From an uncultured bacterium (GTDB lineage: Bacteria > CALINM01), in contig CALINM010000078.1 in the NCBI GenBank assembly GCA_938045315.1, forward strand, positions 1 through 6,419: a DNA stretch of 6,419 nt. The letters run 5' to 3'. A model generated the notes under the pieces. It saw nothing but the letters and a program-made list of their open reading frames with translations, was not told the DNA's origin and searched no databases. Both the position numbers and the translations under genes were made by a program. The stretch's first letter is position 1. Every line of letters begins with the position of its first letter. Shown one piece after another: positions 1,301-6,419 of this stretch.

Positions 1301-2191
1301 ATGATTTATAAAATCAGTGATGCAGAATTACTGGAGGAACTCAGAAGAAGATTTAATGAAAACAAAAAAGTAGTTCACGATCTTCAAATATTGACGAAGA
1401 AATTAGAGAGGATGAATGCCAAATTAATAGAGTCTGAATCACTAAAAAGTAATTTTATTTCAAATATAAAAAATGAACTTAATAACCCCATAACGTCAAT
1501 ATTAATAATGGCTAAGGAATTAATAAAAGGTATAGATAGCATGGATACTAAAATGGTTACTTCGTTAGCAGAAAATCTATATTTAGAGCTCCTTACGATA
1601 GATTTCAATTTAAGAAATATCTTTATGGCAGCAGAAATTGAAGCTGGTGAAATTAAGCTTGATATTTCAAAAATTAATTTAAATCAGTTTATAAACAATA
1701 CCTTTGAAGAGGTTGTATATCTTTTAAAACGTAAGAATATTAATGTTGAAAAGAGCTTTGTAGGAATTTCTAATTCTGAAGATGATACCTTTTTTAAAAC
1801 CGATGCGGAGAAGCTCAAATTAGTTTTAATAAACTTGCTATGGAACTCCATTGAATATAGCAAAAATAATTCCAGGATTATTTTTACAATAGACCTGAGA
1901 GATAATGTTTTAAATTTTTGGATTAAAGACTTCGGTTTTCAAATGGCTACTGATGATTTAGATACTATTTTTGGAGAATTTAAGCATATAAGTGTGGATC
2001 TAACAAAGAGAGATAGGGGAAAATCACTCTCTCTAAATGTAAGTAAAGCAATAATAGAACTCTTAAATGGTAGCATAACTGTTAAACCTAATGAAGATTA
2101 TAGAGGATGTACTTTTACAATTATGATACCAGAATCTCAAGCTGATGTAGAAGATGTTATATCTGAAGATGGGAATGAATTTTTCTTTTAA
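1301..2191 (+). CDS. Degenerate histidine-kinase-like protein (probable pseudo-kinase), chemotaxis-linked
   Basis: This 296-residue protein has no signal peptide or membrane segment and should be cytosolic. Residues about 7-50 are charged and probably form a coiled coil. A DHp (HisKA-like) region follows at about 50-115 and a HATPase_c-like domain at about 160-280. The H-box reads NIKNELNNPITSI where active kinases have SHELRTP-like sequence, so Asn58 stands in the place of the phospho-accepting histidine. In the ATPase domain the N-box is recognisable (NLLWNSIEYS, Asn182) and Asp210 and the F-box (IFGEF, 223-227) remain. However, the G1 box is DFGFQM (second Gly is Gln214) and the G2 box is GKSLSL, with Ser242 and Ser244 for the usual glycines. 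The reading frame is intact, so this is a specialised protein rather than a decayed gene. Autophosphorylation is not expected; a scaffold, decoy or regulatory role is inferred. It is the first gene after the sigma-28 promoter and stands 3 bases before cheD. Confidence 0.85.
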   Translation: MIYKISDAELLEELRRRFNENKKVVHDLQILTKKLERMNAKLIESESLKSNFISNIKNELNNPITSILIMAKELIKGIDSMDTKMVTSLAENLYLELLTIDFNLRNIFMAAEIEAGEIKLDISKINLNQFINNTFEEVVYLLKRKNINVEKSFVGISNSEDDTFFKTDAEKLKLVLINLLWNSIEYSKNNSRIIFTIDLRDNVLNFWIKDFGFQMATDDLDTIFGEFKHISVDLTKRDRGKSLSLNVSKAIIELLNGSITVKPNEDYRGCTFTIMIPESQADVEDVISEDGNEFFF

Positions 2192-2194
2192 GTC

Positions 2195-2668
2195 ATGAGT
2201 GAAATTAGATTAAAGGAAATATATTTATATCCAGGACAAATTTATGCAGAAACAGATCCTGCATTAGTAACTACAGTGCTTGGTTCATGCGTTTCAGTTT
2301 GTTTATTCGATAAGGTTGAAAAAATAGGTGCAATTAACCATTTTATGTTACCCTTATGGAATGGTGATGGGCTGCCTTCTCCCAAATATGGCAATATAGC
2401 AATTCCTAAATTAATAGAAAAAATGATTCTTAATGGTTGTAGAAGAAACAACCTCGTAGCAAAAATTTTTGGTGGTGCTTCTGTATTGAATTCAAGTAGT
2501 GGTTTGATGGGCGTGGGGGAAAGAAATATAAGTCTTGCTAAAGATATGTTGAAAATGGAAGGAATTCAAATTGTGGCCGCAAGCTTAGGTGAAAATTATG
2601 GAAGAAAGATAATCTTTAACACCCTTACTGGGGAAGTCTTGATGAAAAAAGTAACTAATGGGTATTAA
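2195..2668 (+). CDS. cheD: Chemoreceptor glutamine deamidase CheD
   Basis: CheD converts specific glutamines of methyl-accepting chemotaxis proteins to glutamate, tuning receptor output during adaptation; in some bacteria it also partners with the phosphatase CheC. The 157-residue length is normal for the family. The catalytic residues line up with the known Cys-His-Thr set: Thr26, Cys32 in VLGSCVSVCLFD, and His49 in INHFMLP, with the same spacing as in Thermotoga maritima CheD (Thr21, Cys27, His44). The FGGA motif and the C-terminal GRKIIFNTLTGEV segment are also typical. ATG 2195 lies only 3 bases after the stop of the kinase-like gene and has no strong Shine-Dalgarno sequence, so translation is probably coupled to the upstream gene. 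The likely substrate is the MCP encoded at the end of the window, among others. No cheC or cheB is visible here. Confidence 0.96.
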   Translation: MSEIRLKEIYLYPGQIYAETDPALVTTVLGSCVSVCLFDKVEKIGAINHFMLPLWNGDGLPSPKYGNIAIPKLIEKMILNGCRRNNLVAKIFGGASVLNSSSGLMGVGERNISLAKDMLKMEGIQIVAASLGENYGRKIIFNTLTGEVLMKKVTNGY

Positions 2669-2715: not shown

Positions 2716-3084
2716 ATGGGAAGGACAATAATGATCATAGATGATTCTGCTTCTATAAGACAGGTTGTTAGTTTAGCTTTAACTAAAGCGGGTTATGAGG
2801 TAGTTGAAGCAGAGGATGGTCAAGATGCCTTGAATAAGCTGCAAAATATTAAGGTGAATTTGATAATTTGTGATGTTAATATGCCTAATATGGATGGCTT
2901 GACTTTTTTAAAAAATTTAAAGCAATTATCTAATCATAAATTTACACCTGTTATAATGTTAACCACAGAATCACAACAATCATTGAAAATGGAAGGTAAA
3001 ATGGCAGGAGCTAAAGCTTGGATGGTTAAACCATTCAAGCCAGAACAGATGCTTGAGGCTATCTCAAAGCTTATATTACCATAA
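2716..3084 (+). CDS. cheY: Single-domain response regulator CheY
   Basis: This is a 122-residue stand-alone receiver domain with no output domain. All active-site residues are present: acidic pair Asp9/Asp10 in IIDDS, phospho-acceptor Asp53 in CDVNMPNMDG, Thr83 in MLTTES, and Lys105 in VKPF. The position equivalent to Tyr106 of E. coli CheY is Trp102 (AWMVKPF), an aromatic but different switch residue. The expected role is to take phosphate from CheA His48 and, when phosphorylated, bind the flagellar switch to change rotation. Its place in the same operon as cheA and behind a sigma-28-type promoter supports motor control rather than a general two-component function. A start at ATG 2716 is needed for the first beta strand and is preceded by a strong ribosome binding site. 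Its stop codon overlaps the ribosome binding site of the STAS gene. Confidence 0.95.
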   Translation: MGRTIMIIDDSASIRQVVSLALTKAGYEVVEAEDGQDALNKLQNIKVNLIICDVNMPNMDGLTFLKNLKQLSNHKFTPVIMLTTESQQSLKMEGKMAGAKAWMVKPFKPEQMLEAISKLILP

Positions 3085-3095
3085 GGATAATATAC

Positions 3096-3383
3096 ATGAG
3101 GGTTGAAGACACTATAGAGGTTTATGTTGTTGGGGAAATGAATATTTATAAGGCAGAGGATAATAAAAAAACCTTTCAGAGTTATCTAACAAATAATAAA
3201 AATGTTATTTTAGATCTTTCAAACGTAACAGAATTCGATACCGCGGGTTTACAGATATTAATGGCTTTTAAAAAGAGTCTCGATGCAAAGCATAAAAATT
3301 TATATTTGAGGGCACCTTCAGAATTAATAATAAACATTCTGAAGTTACTTAAAATGGATAATTACTTTGAGGTTATCAATTAA
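3096..3383 (+). CDS. Single-domain STAS protein (anti-sigma-factor-antagonist-like) in the che operon
   Basis: This 95-residue protein is essentially one STAS domain. It has N-terminal beta strands (IEVYVVGEMNIYKAED), the core strand NVILDLSNVTEFDTAGLQIL, and a C-terminal beta-alpha unit ending in MDNYFEV. In SpoIIAA/RsbV proteins the DSxG serine is phosphorylated by a HATPase-type kinase; here the matching position is Thr49 in D48-T49-A50-G51, which could still be phosphorylated. The domain is related to SpoIIAA and MlaB-type STAS proteins. Small STAS proteins of this type occur in several chemotaxis operons, where their task is poorly defined. An AAGGA sequence at 3083-3087, overlapping the cheY stop, lies 8 bases before ATG 3096. 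The stop is followed after one base by the cheA start. Family is confident; partner and role are unknown. Confidence 0.9.
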   Translation: MRVEDTIEVYVVGEMNIYKAEDNKKTFQSYLTNNKNVILDLSNVTEFDTAGLQILMAFKKSLDAKHKNLYLRAPSELIINILKLLKMDNYFEVIN

Positions 3384-3384
3384 A

Positions 3385-5517
3385 ATGAACGATGAATTGA
3401 ATGCTATCAAACAGACCTTCATAAATGAAAGCCTGGATCTTTTAGAGGCTATGGAGAGGTCTTTGCTAAAAATAGAAAATTCACCTGAGGATCAAGAAAC
3501 CATCAATACTCTTTTTAGAAGTGCTCATACTATTAAGGGTTCTTCAGGTATGGTTGGTTATTATGAGATAGAAAAATTTACTCACACATTAGAAAATACC
3601 TTATCCTCCATTAGAGATGGTAAATTAAGTATTAATCGGGATATTATCGATCTTCTACTGGAATGTAAAGACTATATTTCTGATATGATAAGGGTTTACG
3701 CCATTGAAGAAAGTGTATTAACTGAGGAAATGAGGATTAAAGGTGATTTATTAAAAGTAAAGCTTCAGAACCTAAAAGATGAAAAAAAAGTATTGGAAAA
3801 GGAGCTAAAAGAAAGCTCAGAAATCATAAATATTGAGGGGATATGGCATATTTCAGTTAAGTTCAATGAAGATATACTCACCTATGGCTTCGATCCATTG
3901 TCTTTTATAAATTATATGCAAAAGATTGGTGAGGTACGTTACATTTTTGTGAACGCACAAAAACTTCCACCATTAGAAGAACTAAATCATGAAAAATGTT
4001 ATTTATCCTTTGAAATTGGTCTTTATACTGAGCTTGGTAAAAAGGCAATAGAAGATATTTTTGAGTTTGTAATAGAAGATGTTAAATTAAGAATTCTTCC
4101 GCCAAACAGCAAAGTTGAAGAATATATAAAATTGATAGAAGAGCTTAAGACAGATTCAGAAAAATTAGGAGAGATATTAGTTAATGCGGAAGTAATTACT
4201 AAAAAGGAGTTAGAAGATGCCCTTGAAGAACAAAGAAATAGGAAGGTTTTGAAGGGCGAAGAAAAAAAGATCGGAGAGATCATAGTTGAGGAAAAAATGG
4301 CCCATCAACCTGTTGTTGATGTAGCCCTTGAGAAGCAAAAGAAAATTTTAGAATCAAAACAAAGAGAGAGTAAAACAATTAAGGTTGATTCTGAAAAATT
4401 AGATCACCTAATCAATATGGTTGGTGAGCTTGTTATTGCTACTGCAGGTCTTAACCAGCAATCTATGAAAATAGGTTTCAAGGAGTTTTTGGAATCCGTA
4501 TCCATTATGACGAGATTGGTTGAAGATATTAGAGAGAAGGCTATGCAACTTAGGATGGTTCCTGTGGGGGAGACGTTTTCAAAATTTCAAAGGGTTGTAA
4601 GGGATATATGTAAAGAAACAGGCAAAGAAATTGAGTTGAGAATAACAGGGGGGGATACGGAGCTAGATAAAAATGTTACGGAAAAGATAAATGATCCTCT
4701 TATGCATTTGATTAGAAATGCCTGTGATCATGGAATAGAAACACCTGATGTAAGGGAGAAGATTGGTAAACCAAGAAAAGGTATCGTTAAGATTAATGCA
4801 TATAATGATGCAGGTAGTATTGTTATAGAAATTATTGATGATGGTAAAGGCATAGACAAAGAAAAAATACTGCAAAAAGCAATTAGTATGGGATTGATCC
4901 AGGATAATCAGCAATTATCTGAAAGGGAAATATTTAATTTAATCTTTCATCCAGGCTTATCTACTGCAGAGGATGTAACAAAATTCTCCGGAAGGGGGGT
5001 TGGGATGGATGTTGTTAAAAAAGGTATCGAATCCCTGAGGGGTATAATTGATATTGATAGCAAGAAAAATATTGGAACAACAGTAAGAATAAAACTGCCA
5101 TTAACACTTGCAATAATTGATGGTTTTATGGTGAGTGTTGATGATGCTAATTTTATTATACCACTTGAGATGGTTATTGAGTGTCTTGAGTTAAATGGTT
5201 TTTCAAGAGAGGATACGAACCAGAAAAAATATATAGATTTGAGAGGAGAGGTTTTGCCTCTTATTCGGTTAAGGGATATTTTCTACAATAATGGATTTTT
5301 ACCACCTATAGAAAATGTAGTAGTTGTTAAGGTAGGACAGCAAAAAATAGGTATAGTTGTAGATAAACTAAAGGGTGAGGTTCAAACGGTAATAAAGAAT
5401 ATGGGGATTTTTTACAAAAATTATAGACATATCTCTGGAGCAACAATACTTGGAGATGGAAATGTGGCTCTTATATTAGATGTTCAGTATTTATTAAATG
5501 GAGGATTAGTATGTTGA
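3385..5517 (+). CDS. cheA: Chemotaxis histidine kinase CheA with an unusual P2-region insert
   Basis: CheA is the central kinase of the receptor array, donating phosphate to CheY. The 710 residues show, in order: an HPt/P1 domain (about 1-120) with phospho-site His48 in SAHTIKGSSG; a charged linker (to about 150); a region at about 152-245, starting with the IWHISVKF strand, that stands where P2 would be and resembles the middle domain of many delta-proteobacterial-type CheAs; two MshEN-like repeats (260-283 and 295-318); the P3 dimerisation helices (about 333-395, DSEKLDHLINMVGELVI); the P4 ATPase (about 396-570) with N-box HLIRNACDHG (His441, Asn445), G1 DDGKG (485-489) and G2 GRGVGMD (536-542); and a CheW-like P5 domain (about 573-710). 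All kinase motifs are intact. ATG 3385 is preferred to the earlier in-frame TTG 3367, which lies inside the STAS gene; a weak GAGG lies 12 bases upstream and coupling to STAS translation is likely. The end overlaps mcp by 7 bases. Confidence 0.96.
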   Translation: MNDELNAIKQTFINESLDLLEAMERSLLKIENSPEDQETINTLFRSAHTIKGSSGMVGYYEIEKFTHTLENTLSSIRDGKLSINRDIIDLLLECKDYISDMIRVYAIEESVLTEEMRIKGDLLKVKLQNLKDEKKVLEKELKESSEIINIEGIWHISVKFNEDILTYGFDPLSFINYMQKIGEVRYIFVNAQKLPPLEELNHEKCYLSFEIGLYTELGKKAIEDIFEFVIEDVKLRILPPNSKVEEYIKLIEELKTDSEKLGEILVNAEVITKKELEDALEEQRNRKVLKGEEKKIGEIIVEEKMAHQPVVDVALEKQKKILESKQRESKTIKVDSEKLDHLINMVGELVIATAGLNQQSMKIGFKEFLESVSIMTRLVEDIREKAMQLRMVPVGETFSKFQRVVRDICKETGKEIELRITGGDTELDKNVTEKINDPLMHLIRNACDHGIETPDVREKIGKPRKGIVKINAYNDAGSIVIEIIDDGKGIDKEKILQKAISMGLIQDNQQLSEREIFNLIFHPGLSTAEDVTKFSGRGVGMDVVKKGIESLRGIIDIDSKKNIGTTVRIKLPLTLAIIDGFMVSVDDANFIIPLEMVIECLELNGFSREDTNQKKYIDLRGEVLPLIRLRDIFYNNGFLPPIENVVVVKVGQQKIGIVVDKLKGEVQTVIKNMGIFYKNYRHISGATILGDGNVALILDVQYLLNGGLVC
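4162..4338 (+). other. Tandem MshEN-like motifs inside CheA
   Basis: CheA residues 260-283 and 295-318 are two 24-residue units with the same spacing of key positions: KLGEILV...L...L..Q and KIGEIIV...V...L..Q. They resemble the RLGxxLVxxGxIxxxxLxxxLxxQ motif of MshEN domains, which bind cyclic di-GMP in MshE-type ATPases. The first copy keeps LG, LV, I, L, L and Q, with Lys for Arg and Glu for the middle Gly. The second copy is more divergent. The linker is 11 residues, shorter than in MshE. Homologous repeats occur in other CheA proteins by my recollection. Ligand binding is unproven. Confidence 0.6.
5500..5504 (+). promoter_or_regulatory. Ribosome binding site of mcp inside the end of cheA
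   Basis: GGAGG lies six bases before ATG 5511, within the last codons of cheA. It supports the start of the MCP at 5511 and a 7-base overlap of the two genes, typical of translational coupling. Confidence 0.8.
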
Positions 5518-6419
5518 AAAAATTAAAACTAAAAGGAAAGATCTTAGCAGTTTTAATTACAATATTTATTTTTCAGCTCGCTGGTTATAGTTATTTATTT
5601 TATATTCTTATGAGCGCCAATCATGATTTTGAATGGATTACAAATGTAAATATGAAAAGAGAGCATCTTTTGTTTGACTTTGAAACAGATCTTAGAGAGG
5701 TTGAAGGCTACATCAAAGATATGGTATTATCCTTAGATACAAGTAAAAAGTATGAGTTGAAAGATAAAATAGCTCAAAAAAGAAAGTCTTATGCAGAAAA
5801 ATTAGACCAGGTCAGTAAATTAATAGATCAAAATGATAAAAAAGGCTTTGACATTTTATCTGAGTTAAAGGTTGCAATTGAACAGGCAAAGCCTTACAAC
5901 TCTCAAATAATAGAATCTATACTTAAGGGAGAAGAACTTGTTGCCAGAGCGATTTTTGAGAGAGATGCTAAACCTGCTATAGATAAAGTATATGATAAAA
6001 TTGGAGTATTAATTGATCACTTTAATGAAAGAACAAATATTAGATATAGAAAATTTGGTACCCTTTTTAGAATCTCTATTTTTGTAATATGTATAATATC
6101 ATTTTTATCTTTAGCTATAATTATTTTTGCAGGTGCCTATTATATAAAAACAATTGTAAATCCTATCAAACAAGCAAGTGATGCAATAAAGACTATAGCA
6201 AGGGGAGATTTAGGGGTTAACATTAATACTGTAAACACTAAAGACGAGATAAGTCAGATGATGGTATCATTGGGTGAGATGATAGATAAGTTAAGGGGTG
6301 TTATATTGGAGGTTAAATCTGCGGCGGACAATGTGGCATCTGGCAGTAGTCAGTTAAGTAGTTCGGCGCAGCAGTTATCACAGGGTGCTACAGAGCAAGC
6401 TGCGTCAGTTGAAGAGACT
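5511..6419 (+). CDS. Methyl-accepting chemotaxis protein, 3'-truncated by the window edge
   Basis: The frame is open from ATG 5511 to the last base, giving 303 residues. A short positively charged N-terminus is followed by TM1 (about 11-33), a mostly helical periplasmic domain (about 35-185) that looks like a four-helix-bundle (4HB_MCP) ligand domain, TM2 (about 188-211), a HAMP domain (about 210-263, with the conserved Pro218), and the start of the cytoplasmic methylation helix. The last residues, GATEQAASVEET, match the first methylation segment of Tsr-type receptors, so Gln296 and neighbouring Glu residues are likely sites for CheD and the methylation enzymes. The rest of the signalling domain, including the kinase-control hairpin tip, is outside the window. 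This transmembrane receptor is expected to drive the CheA encoded just upstream; its ligand cannot be predicted. The last ~100 bases are richer in G+C than the rest of the gene. Confidence 0.94.
   Translation, partial: MLKKLKLKGKILAVLITIFIFQLAGYSYLFYILMSANHDFEWITNVNMKREHLLFDFETDLREVEGYIKDMVLSLDTSKKYELKDKIAQKRKSYAEKLDQVSKLIDQNDKKGFDILSELKVAIEQAKPYNSQIIESILKGEELVARAIFERDAKPAIDKVYDKIGVLIDHFNERTNIRYRKFGTLFRISIFVICIISFLSLAIIIFAGAYYIKTIVNPIKQASDAIKTIARGDLGVNINTVNTKDEISQMMVSLGEMIDKLRGVILEVKSAADNVASGSSQLSSSAQQLSQGATEQAASVEET

Follow-up and report, generated by a model that had tools for sequence, protein, structure and literature searches.

What might a histidine-kinase-like protein do at the head of a chemotaxis gene cluster once it has lost the histidine that a kinase of its kind phosphorylates? 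The question is raised by a 6,419-base stretch of DNA from an uncultured bacterium (hereafter, the window), in which such a protein is encoded directly ahead of CheD. We address it by following the protein's motifs, its relatives and their gene neighborhoods.

The protein and its motifs

The gene occupies positions 1301..2191 of the forward strand and encodes 296 residues in an open frame, with HisKA-like DHp and HATPase_c regions. The ATG at 1301 is favored as the start codon over the GTG at 1292 because of a GAGGTG upstream of 1301. In Pfam searches, HATPase_c scores above its curated threshold (E=3.7e-14; 53.6 bits vs a cut-off of 26.4), and the HisKA match, at residues 49–77, is sub-threshold (20.1 bits vs a cut-off of 26.9). 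These are the only Pfam domains found; PAS domains ahead of the DHp were not among them. A single-sequence AlphaFold model reached a pLDDT of 42 and was left out of the evidence.

When aligned with solved kinases, the window sequence FISNIKNELNNP corresponds to FVSNVSHELRTP and FIANISHELRTP, so that Asn58 falls exactly on the phospho-His. This residue, encoded by AAT at 1472–1474, lies in the H-box region FISNIKNELNNPIT (1454..1495, forward strand). On the same strand, the N-box region (1823..1864) retains Asn178 and Asn182, and the F-box (FGEF) is likewise retained. The G1 box DFGFQM (1928..1945, forward; D210-F-G212-F-Q214) keeps Asp210 and Gly212, with Gln214 replacing the second glycine; the G2 box RGKSLSL (2015..2035, forward; R-G240-K-S242-L-S244-L) keeps Gly240, with Ser242 and Ser244 in place of the lid glycines. 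Thus, the protein lacks the phospho-His and matches neither the DxGxG pattern of G1 nor the GxGLGL pattern of G2 expected of an active HisKA kinase. Since Asp210 and the first glycine of both G boxes (212 and 240) are kept, the nucleotide pocket appears to be damaged rather than erased. The original prediction had named these four substitutions and described the frame, Asn182 of the N-box and the F-box as intact; its residue numbers are right in the alignment to solved kinases, and the intact elements are confirmed.

The gene cluster and its host

The gene had also been placed at the head of a chemotaxis operon, and it is indeed the first in a tight, same-strand cluster, beginning 98 nt after an upstream DUF711 gene. 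It is followed, all on the forward strand, by genes for the chemoreceptor deamidase CheD (2195..2668; PF03975, E=2.3e-29), a CheY-type single-domain response regulator (2716..3084; PF00072, E=1.3e-30), a STAS-domain protein (3096..3383; PF01740, E=4.1e-11), CheA with Hpt, dimerization, HATPase_c and CheW-like domains (3385..5517; full-length relatives in other phyla are 40–49% identical) and a methyl-accepting chemotaxis protein with 4HB_MCP_1 and HAMP domains, cut by the contig end (MCP; 5511..6419). The gaps are 3 nt between the kinase-like gene and cheD, 47 between cheD and cheY, 11 between cheY and the STAS gene, and 1 between the latter and cheA; cheA and mcp overlap. By inspection, His48 of CheA (in AHTIKGSSG), Asp53 of CheY and the expected Thr, Cys and His of CheD are all present, and for this reason the remainder of the pathway looks active.

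Several features of the neighboring genes are worth recording in their own right. Between its N-terminal and dimerization domains, the window CheA contains a stretch (4156–4353) resembling MshE-type c-di-GMP-binding sequences, which scores just under the cut-off (NF053729, E=4.6e-9; 35.9 bits, cut-off 38); many CheA matches in other phyla begin their alignment at the same point. The STAS protein has a Thr, within a D-T-A-G motif, at the position of the phosphorylated Ser of SpoIIAA. In related cheY-(STAS)-cheA clusters, a protein of about 370–410 residues is encoded just upstream of cheY (L192, 3–1495; L095, 2587–4188; L097, 2994–4960), the place taken in the window by the kinase-like gene and cheD.

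It should be noted that the host of this cluster is uncertain. The window is an entire contig (C78 of genome G000), and orthologues of the kinase-like protein, CheA and DUF711 protein are missing from two relatives belonging to the phylum of G000, which makes the assignment doubtful. The GC content of the window, 32.6%, is similar to that of other G000 stretches (29–34%). The contig may have been misplaced, or the cluster may have been gained laterally; the argument about the family, given below, is unaffected by this uncertainty.

A family without the phospho-histidine

Several hundred genomes were searched, yielding six further members in two other phyla. A 60-genome search with the window protein returned only ordinary kinases of about 30% identity, and the window's own phylum (three genomes) contained no orthologue of the protein or of the window CheA. 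Scans of genome contigs gave no relative with the kinase query and only generic CheAs with the CheA query; a scan of viral contigs gave no relative, and the family of G352 contained only ordinary kinases. The route to the family led from full-length CheA matches to other phyla, and from there to relatives of the matching genomes. Among the 50 genomes of the G113 phylum, five proteins of near-equal length were found, with G395 and G394 contributing two apiece and G401 one. The seventh member, in G287 of another phylum, was found with a profile. No further member came from a second diverse sample, which comprised 382 genomes and shared some of them with the first. The family is probably rare, although in both large samples the scoring was limited to six candidates from each genome, so that members may have been missed. 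G395 is taken to be Desulfurispirillum indicum, and G394 its relative.

When placed in a tree among about 90 further kinase domains, the seven members form one clade (SH-aLRT 100, obtained after masking the H, G1 and G2 positions), and the unmasked tree pairs the window with G401 (SH-aLRT 96); both values are to be read as SH-aLRT support from a quick search with long branches. The family is a small and old one, and its genes neighbor those of chemotaxis in two or three bacterial phyla at least. The phospho-His position is occupied by N, N, T, N, N, N and N in the seven members and never by His. This exceeds chance, because His occupies the position in 85 of about 92 further kinase domains from the fetched loci; the background of about 7 in 92 includes a few tandem double-core kinases. 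Three such tandem two-core kinases (L112, L118 and L121) carry Gln for His in the first core, an independent loss.

Glu at H+1 (Glu59 in the window) is invariant (7/7), and H+4 is Thr or Asn in six members and Asp in G401. The DHp helices around the H site are better conserved than the ATP-binding domain: mean pairwise identity is 45% for DHp helix 1, 42% for helix 2 and 32% for the CA domain. G1 and G2 are intact in the five G394, G395 and G287 copies and decayed only in the window and G401. As all seven members lack His and form a single clade, the sequences show that this loss is ancestral to the family, and five intact pairs of G boxes show that ATP-site decay came later and was confined to the window and G401. 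The simplest history is one early loss of His, with the ATP lid lost later on a single branch.

These results bear on the original prediction in two ways. Its main claim, a conserved pseudo-kinase rather than a local mutation, is borne out by six orthologues in other phyla, all without His and all beside chemotaxis genes. It had also treated the three catalytic losses as one set, and this part is not borne out as worded: a scoring of the H, G1 and G2 positions across orthologues finds a normal H-box in none of the seven and normal G boxes in five. Judged by sequence, the protein belongs to the general kind termed pseudo-histidine kinase, having a histidine kinase core and a loss of His conserved among orthologues. 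The ordinary explanations, i.e., a local mutation, a dead gene or a misread frame, are unlikely. In particular, that the gene is functionless and decaying in the window lineage, as its three motif losses and long branch might suggest, is in our opinion highly improbable in view of the open frame, the good start, cheD only 3 nt away, the loss of His common to six orthologues and the retention of the N-box and DHp residues.

Gene neighborhoods

Chemotaxis genes adjoin all seven copies, and cheD lies directly downstream in five (the window and loci L134, L135, L137 and L168). The gene order, with HK denoting the family member, is cheA-HK-cheD-cheB for G395b and G394b, cheA-cheR-cheB-HK-cheD for G287 and sensor kinase-HK-cheD for G401; in G395a (cheA-cheR-HK) and G394a (cheW-mcp-cheR-HK), no cheD follows. 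G401 was considered as a second instance of the unbroken window operon and rejected, as HK-cheD and cheY-STAS-cheA lie on two contigs with non-overlapping ends and different neighbors.

CheA, CheY, CheD and the STAS protein had all been named as possible partners. The neighborhoods favor CheD and give less to STAS, which is adjacent in the window only, and to CheA, the adjacency of which varies; CheY is a plausible partner by virtue of the fold and the DivL precedent described below. We consider it very unlikely that members with intact ATP sites are kinases of another type, acting in the manner of SpoIIAB on a partner (for instance STAS) or on a residue other than His. The intact G1 and G2 of five members and the Thr of the window STAS at the SpoIIAA Ser position would fit such an activity, but the one STAS-adjacent copy is that with a decayed ATP lid, and no STAS gene was seen directly beside the other six copies.

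The neighborhoods also bear on whether the protein modulates another kinase, either an active sensor kinase that it would join via its DHp or CheA, by contact. A sensor kinase is located directly upstream in G401, CheA adjoins the G394b and G395b copies, and the ChrS pseudokinase works with HrrS in heterodimers (PMC9491836). Nevertheless, the neighbor most widely shared is cheD, and no sensor kinase lies near the window, G394, G395 or G287 copies. The dimerization domain of CheA, moreover, differs from HisKA. Taken together, these points make such pairing distinctly unlikely.

Proposed mechanism

We assign a probability of roughly 45% to the reading that these proteins are conserved pseudo-histidine kinases acting as dimeric docking proteins, the DHp of which would bind CheY~P and alter the availability of CheD, and hence the activity of CheA. 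A HisKA protein without its His cannot phosphorylate itself at that site, and autophosphorylation would be impossible here, given the loss. DHp helices dock receivers; the dimer would thus serve as a docking protein for its partners, its DHp helices binding a receiver in the way that DivL binds DivK~P; the likeliest receiver would be the chemotaxis CheY~P. A dimer occupied by CheY~P would change how available CheD is to the receptors, and through it CheA activity, a role that in Bacillus falls to CheC as the partner of CheD. In the window lineage, nucleotide binding would probably be dispensable.

Both parts of this scheme have precedents. DivL shows docking without catalysis: it has no kinase or phosphatase activity, binds an ATP analogue weakly and binds DivK~P via its DHp (PMC4211667). 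The CheC-CheD pair is the precedent for a CheY~P-dependent partner of CheD in which binding outweighs catalysis, for CheY~P strengthens their binding, which is more important than their enzyme activities (PMC3513319). We infer the coupling of the family to CheY and CheD. The further proposal, that a histidine kinase core is a non-homologous replacement for CheC that reads CheY~P and controls the binding of CheD to chemoreceptors, is in our opinion doubtful. Three observations stand against the docking model: two members (G395a and G394a) follow cheR and have no cheD after them; G boxes are intact in five members, an unexpected feature if the family as a whole had no use for nucleotide; and the window protein lacks PAS domains, which DivL requires for its selectivity for DivK~P (PMC4211667).

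The search for CheC itself returned nothing: the window protein has no CheC/CheX/FliY Pfam match, and tblastn with two CheC queries detected no CheC-like sequence in the window or in any fetched locus of the family. A cheC-cheD pair is present in relatives G001 and G002. The lack of CheC in the fetched loci also suits a dedicated CheY~P phosphatase, in which the DHp bundle would hydrolyze the receiver phosphate and lower CheY~P beside CheD, as CheC does. The invariant Glu at H+1 and the Thr or Asn at H+4 (6/7) are residues that HisKA kinases use for this hydrolysis, and an NtrB H139N mutant reportedly keeps phosphatase activity. In HK853, phosphatase activity requires Thr264, the H+4 residue, but the His itself also helps to activate the water (PMC5727384). 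Furthermore, H+4 is Asp in G401, Thr or Asn is in any case the ancestral residue at this position, and DivL, which is also without His, is not a phosphatase and stabilizes DivK~P (PMC4211667). A phosphatase is for these reasons rather unlikely. In summary, action by binding rather than by phosphorylation, as originally proposed, is likely, with a phosphatase role as a candidate alternative.

Significance

Pseudo-histidine kinases are already known as a kind, and those that we found described are individual cases such as DivL. What is presented here is a small clade without His that accompanies chemotaxis genes in several phyla and has CheD as its clear neighbor; our searches of open-licence papers found no report of such a family. 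It offers a graded set of natural variants, with ATP sites running from intact to decayed, and makes possible a direct test of whether a kinase core can serve chemotaxis by docking alone, standing in for CheC. Two of the copies belong to a cultured species if G395 is D. indicum. Were the replacement of CheC to prove true, a pseudo-kinase would run the feedback of chemotaxis adaptation.

Comparison with known systems

One close parallel is DivL of Caulobacter, which shares the HisKA/HATPase core (the window protein matches PDB 4q20 with E=2.4e-12), a replaced phospho-His and a likely single-domain receiver partner. DivL, however, is a large, PAS-bearing cell-cycle regulator with Tyr (Tyr550) at the His position, whereas the window protein has no PAS domain and lies beside chemotaxis genes, and its family has Asn or Thr. 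HK853 and other HisKA sensor kinases have the same two-domain core (E of about 6e-17 against PDB 2c2a), from which the window protein differs in lacking the phospho-His, a sensor domain and the ATP-lid glycines. The ChrS pseudokinase of Corynebacterium glutamicum is likewise a catalytically dead kinase that still alters signaling, although that form, which acts with HrrS, is the product of a frameshift during laboratory evolution (PMC9491836). CheC, the CheD partner and CheY~P phosphatase, belongs to an unrelated sequence family, yet its gene in G001 and G002, like that of the window protein, lies directly upstream of cheD.
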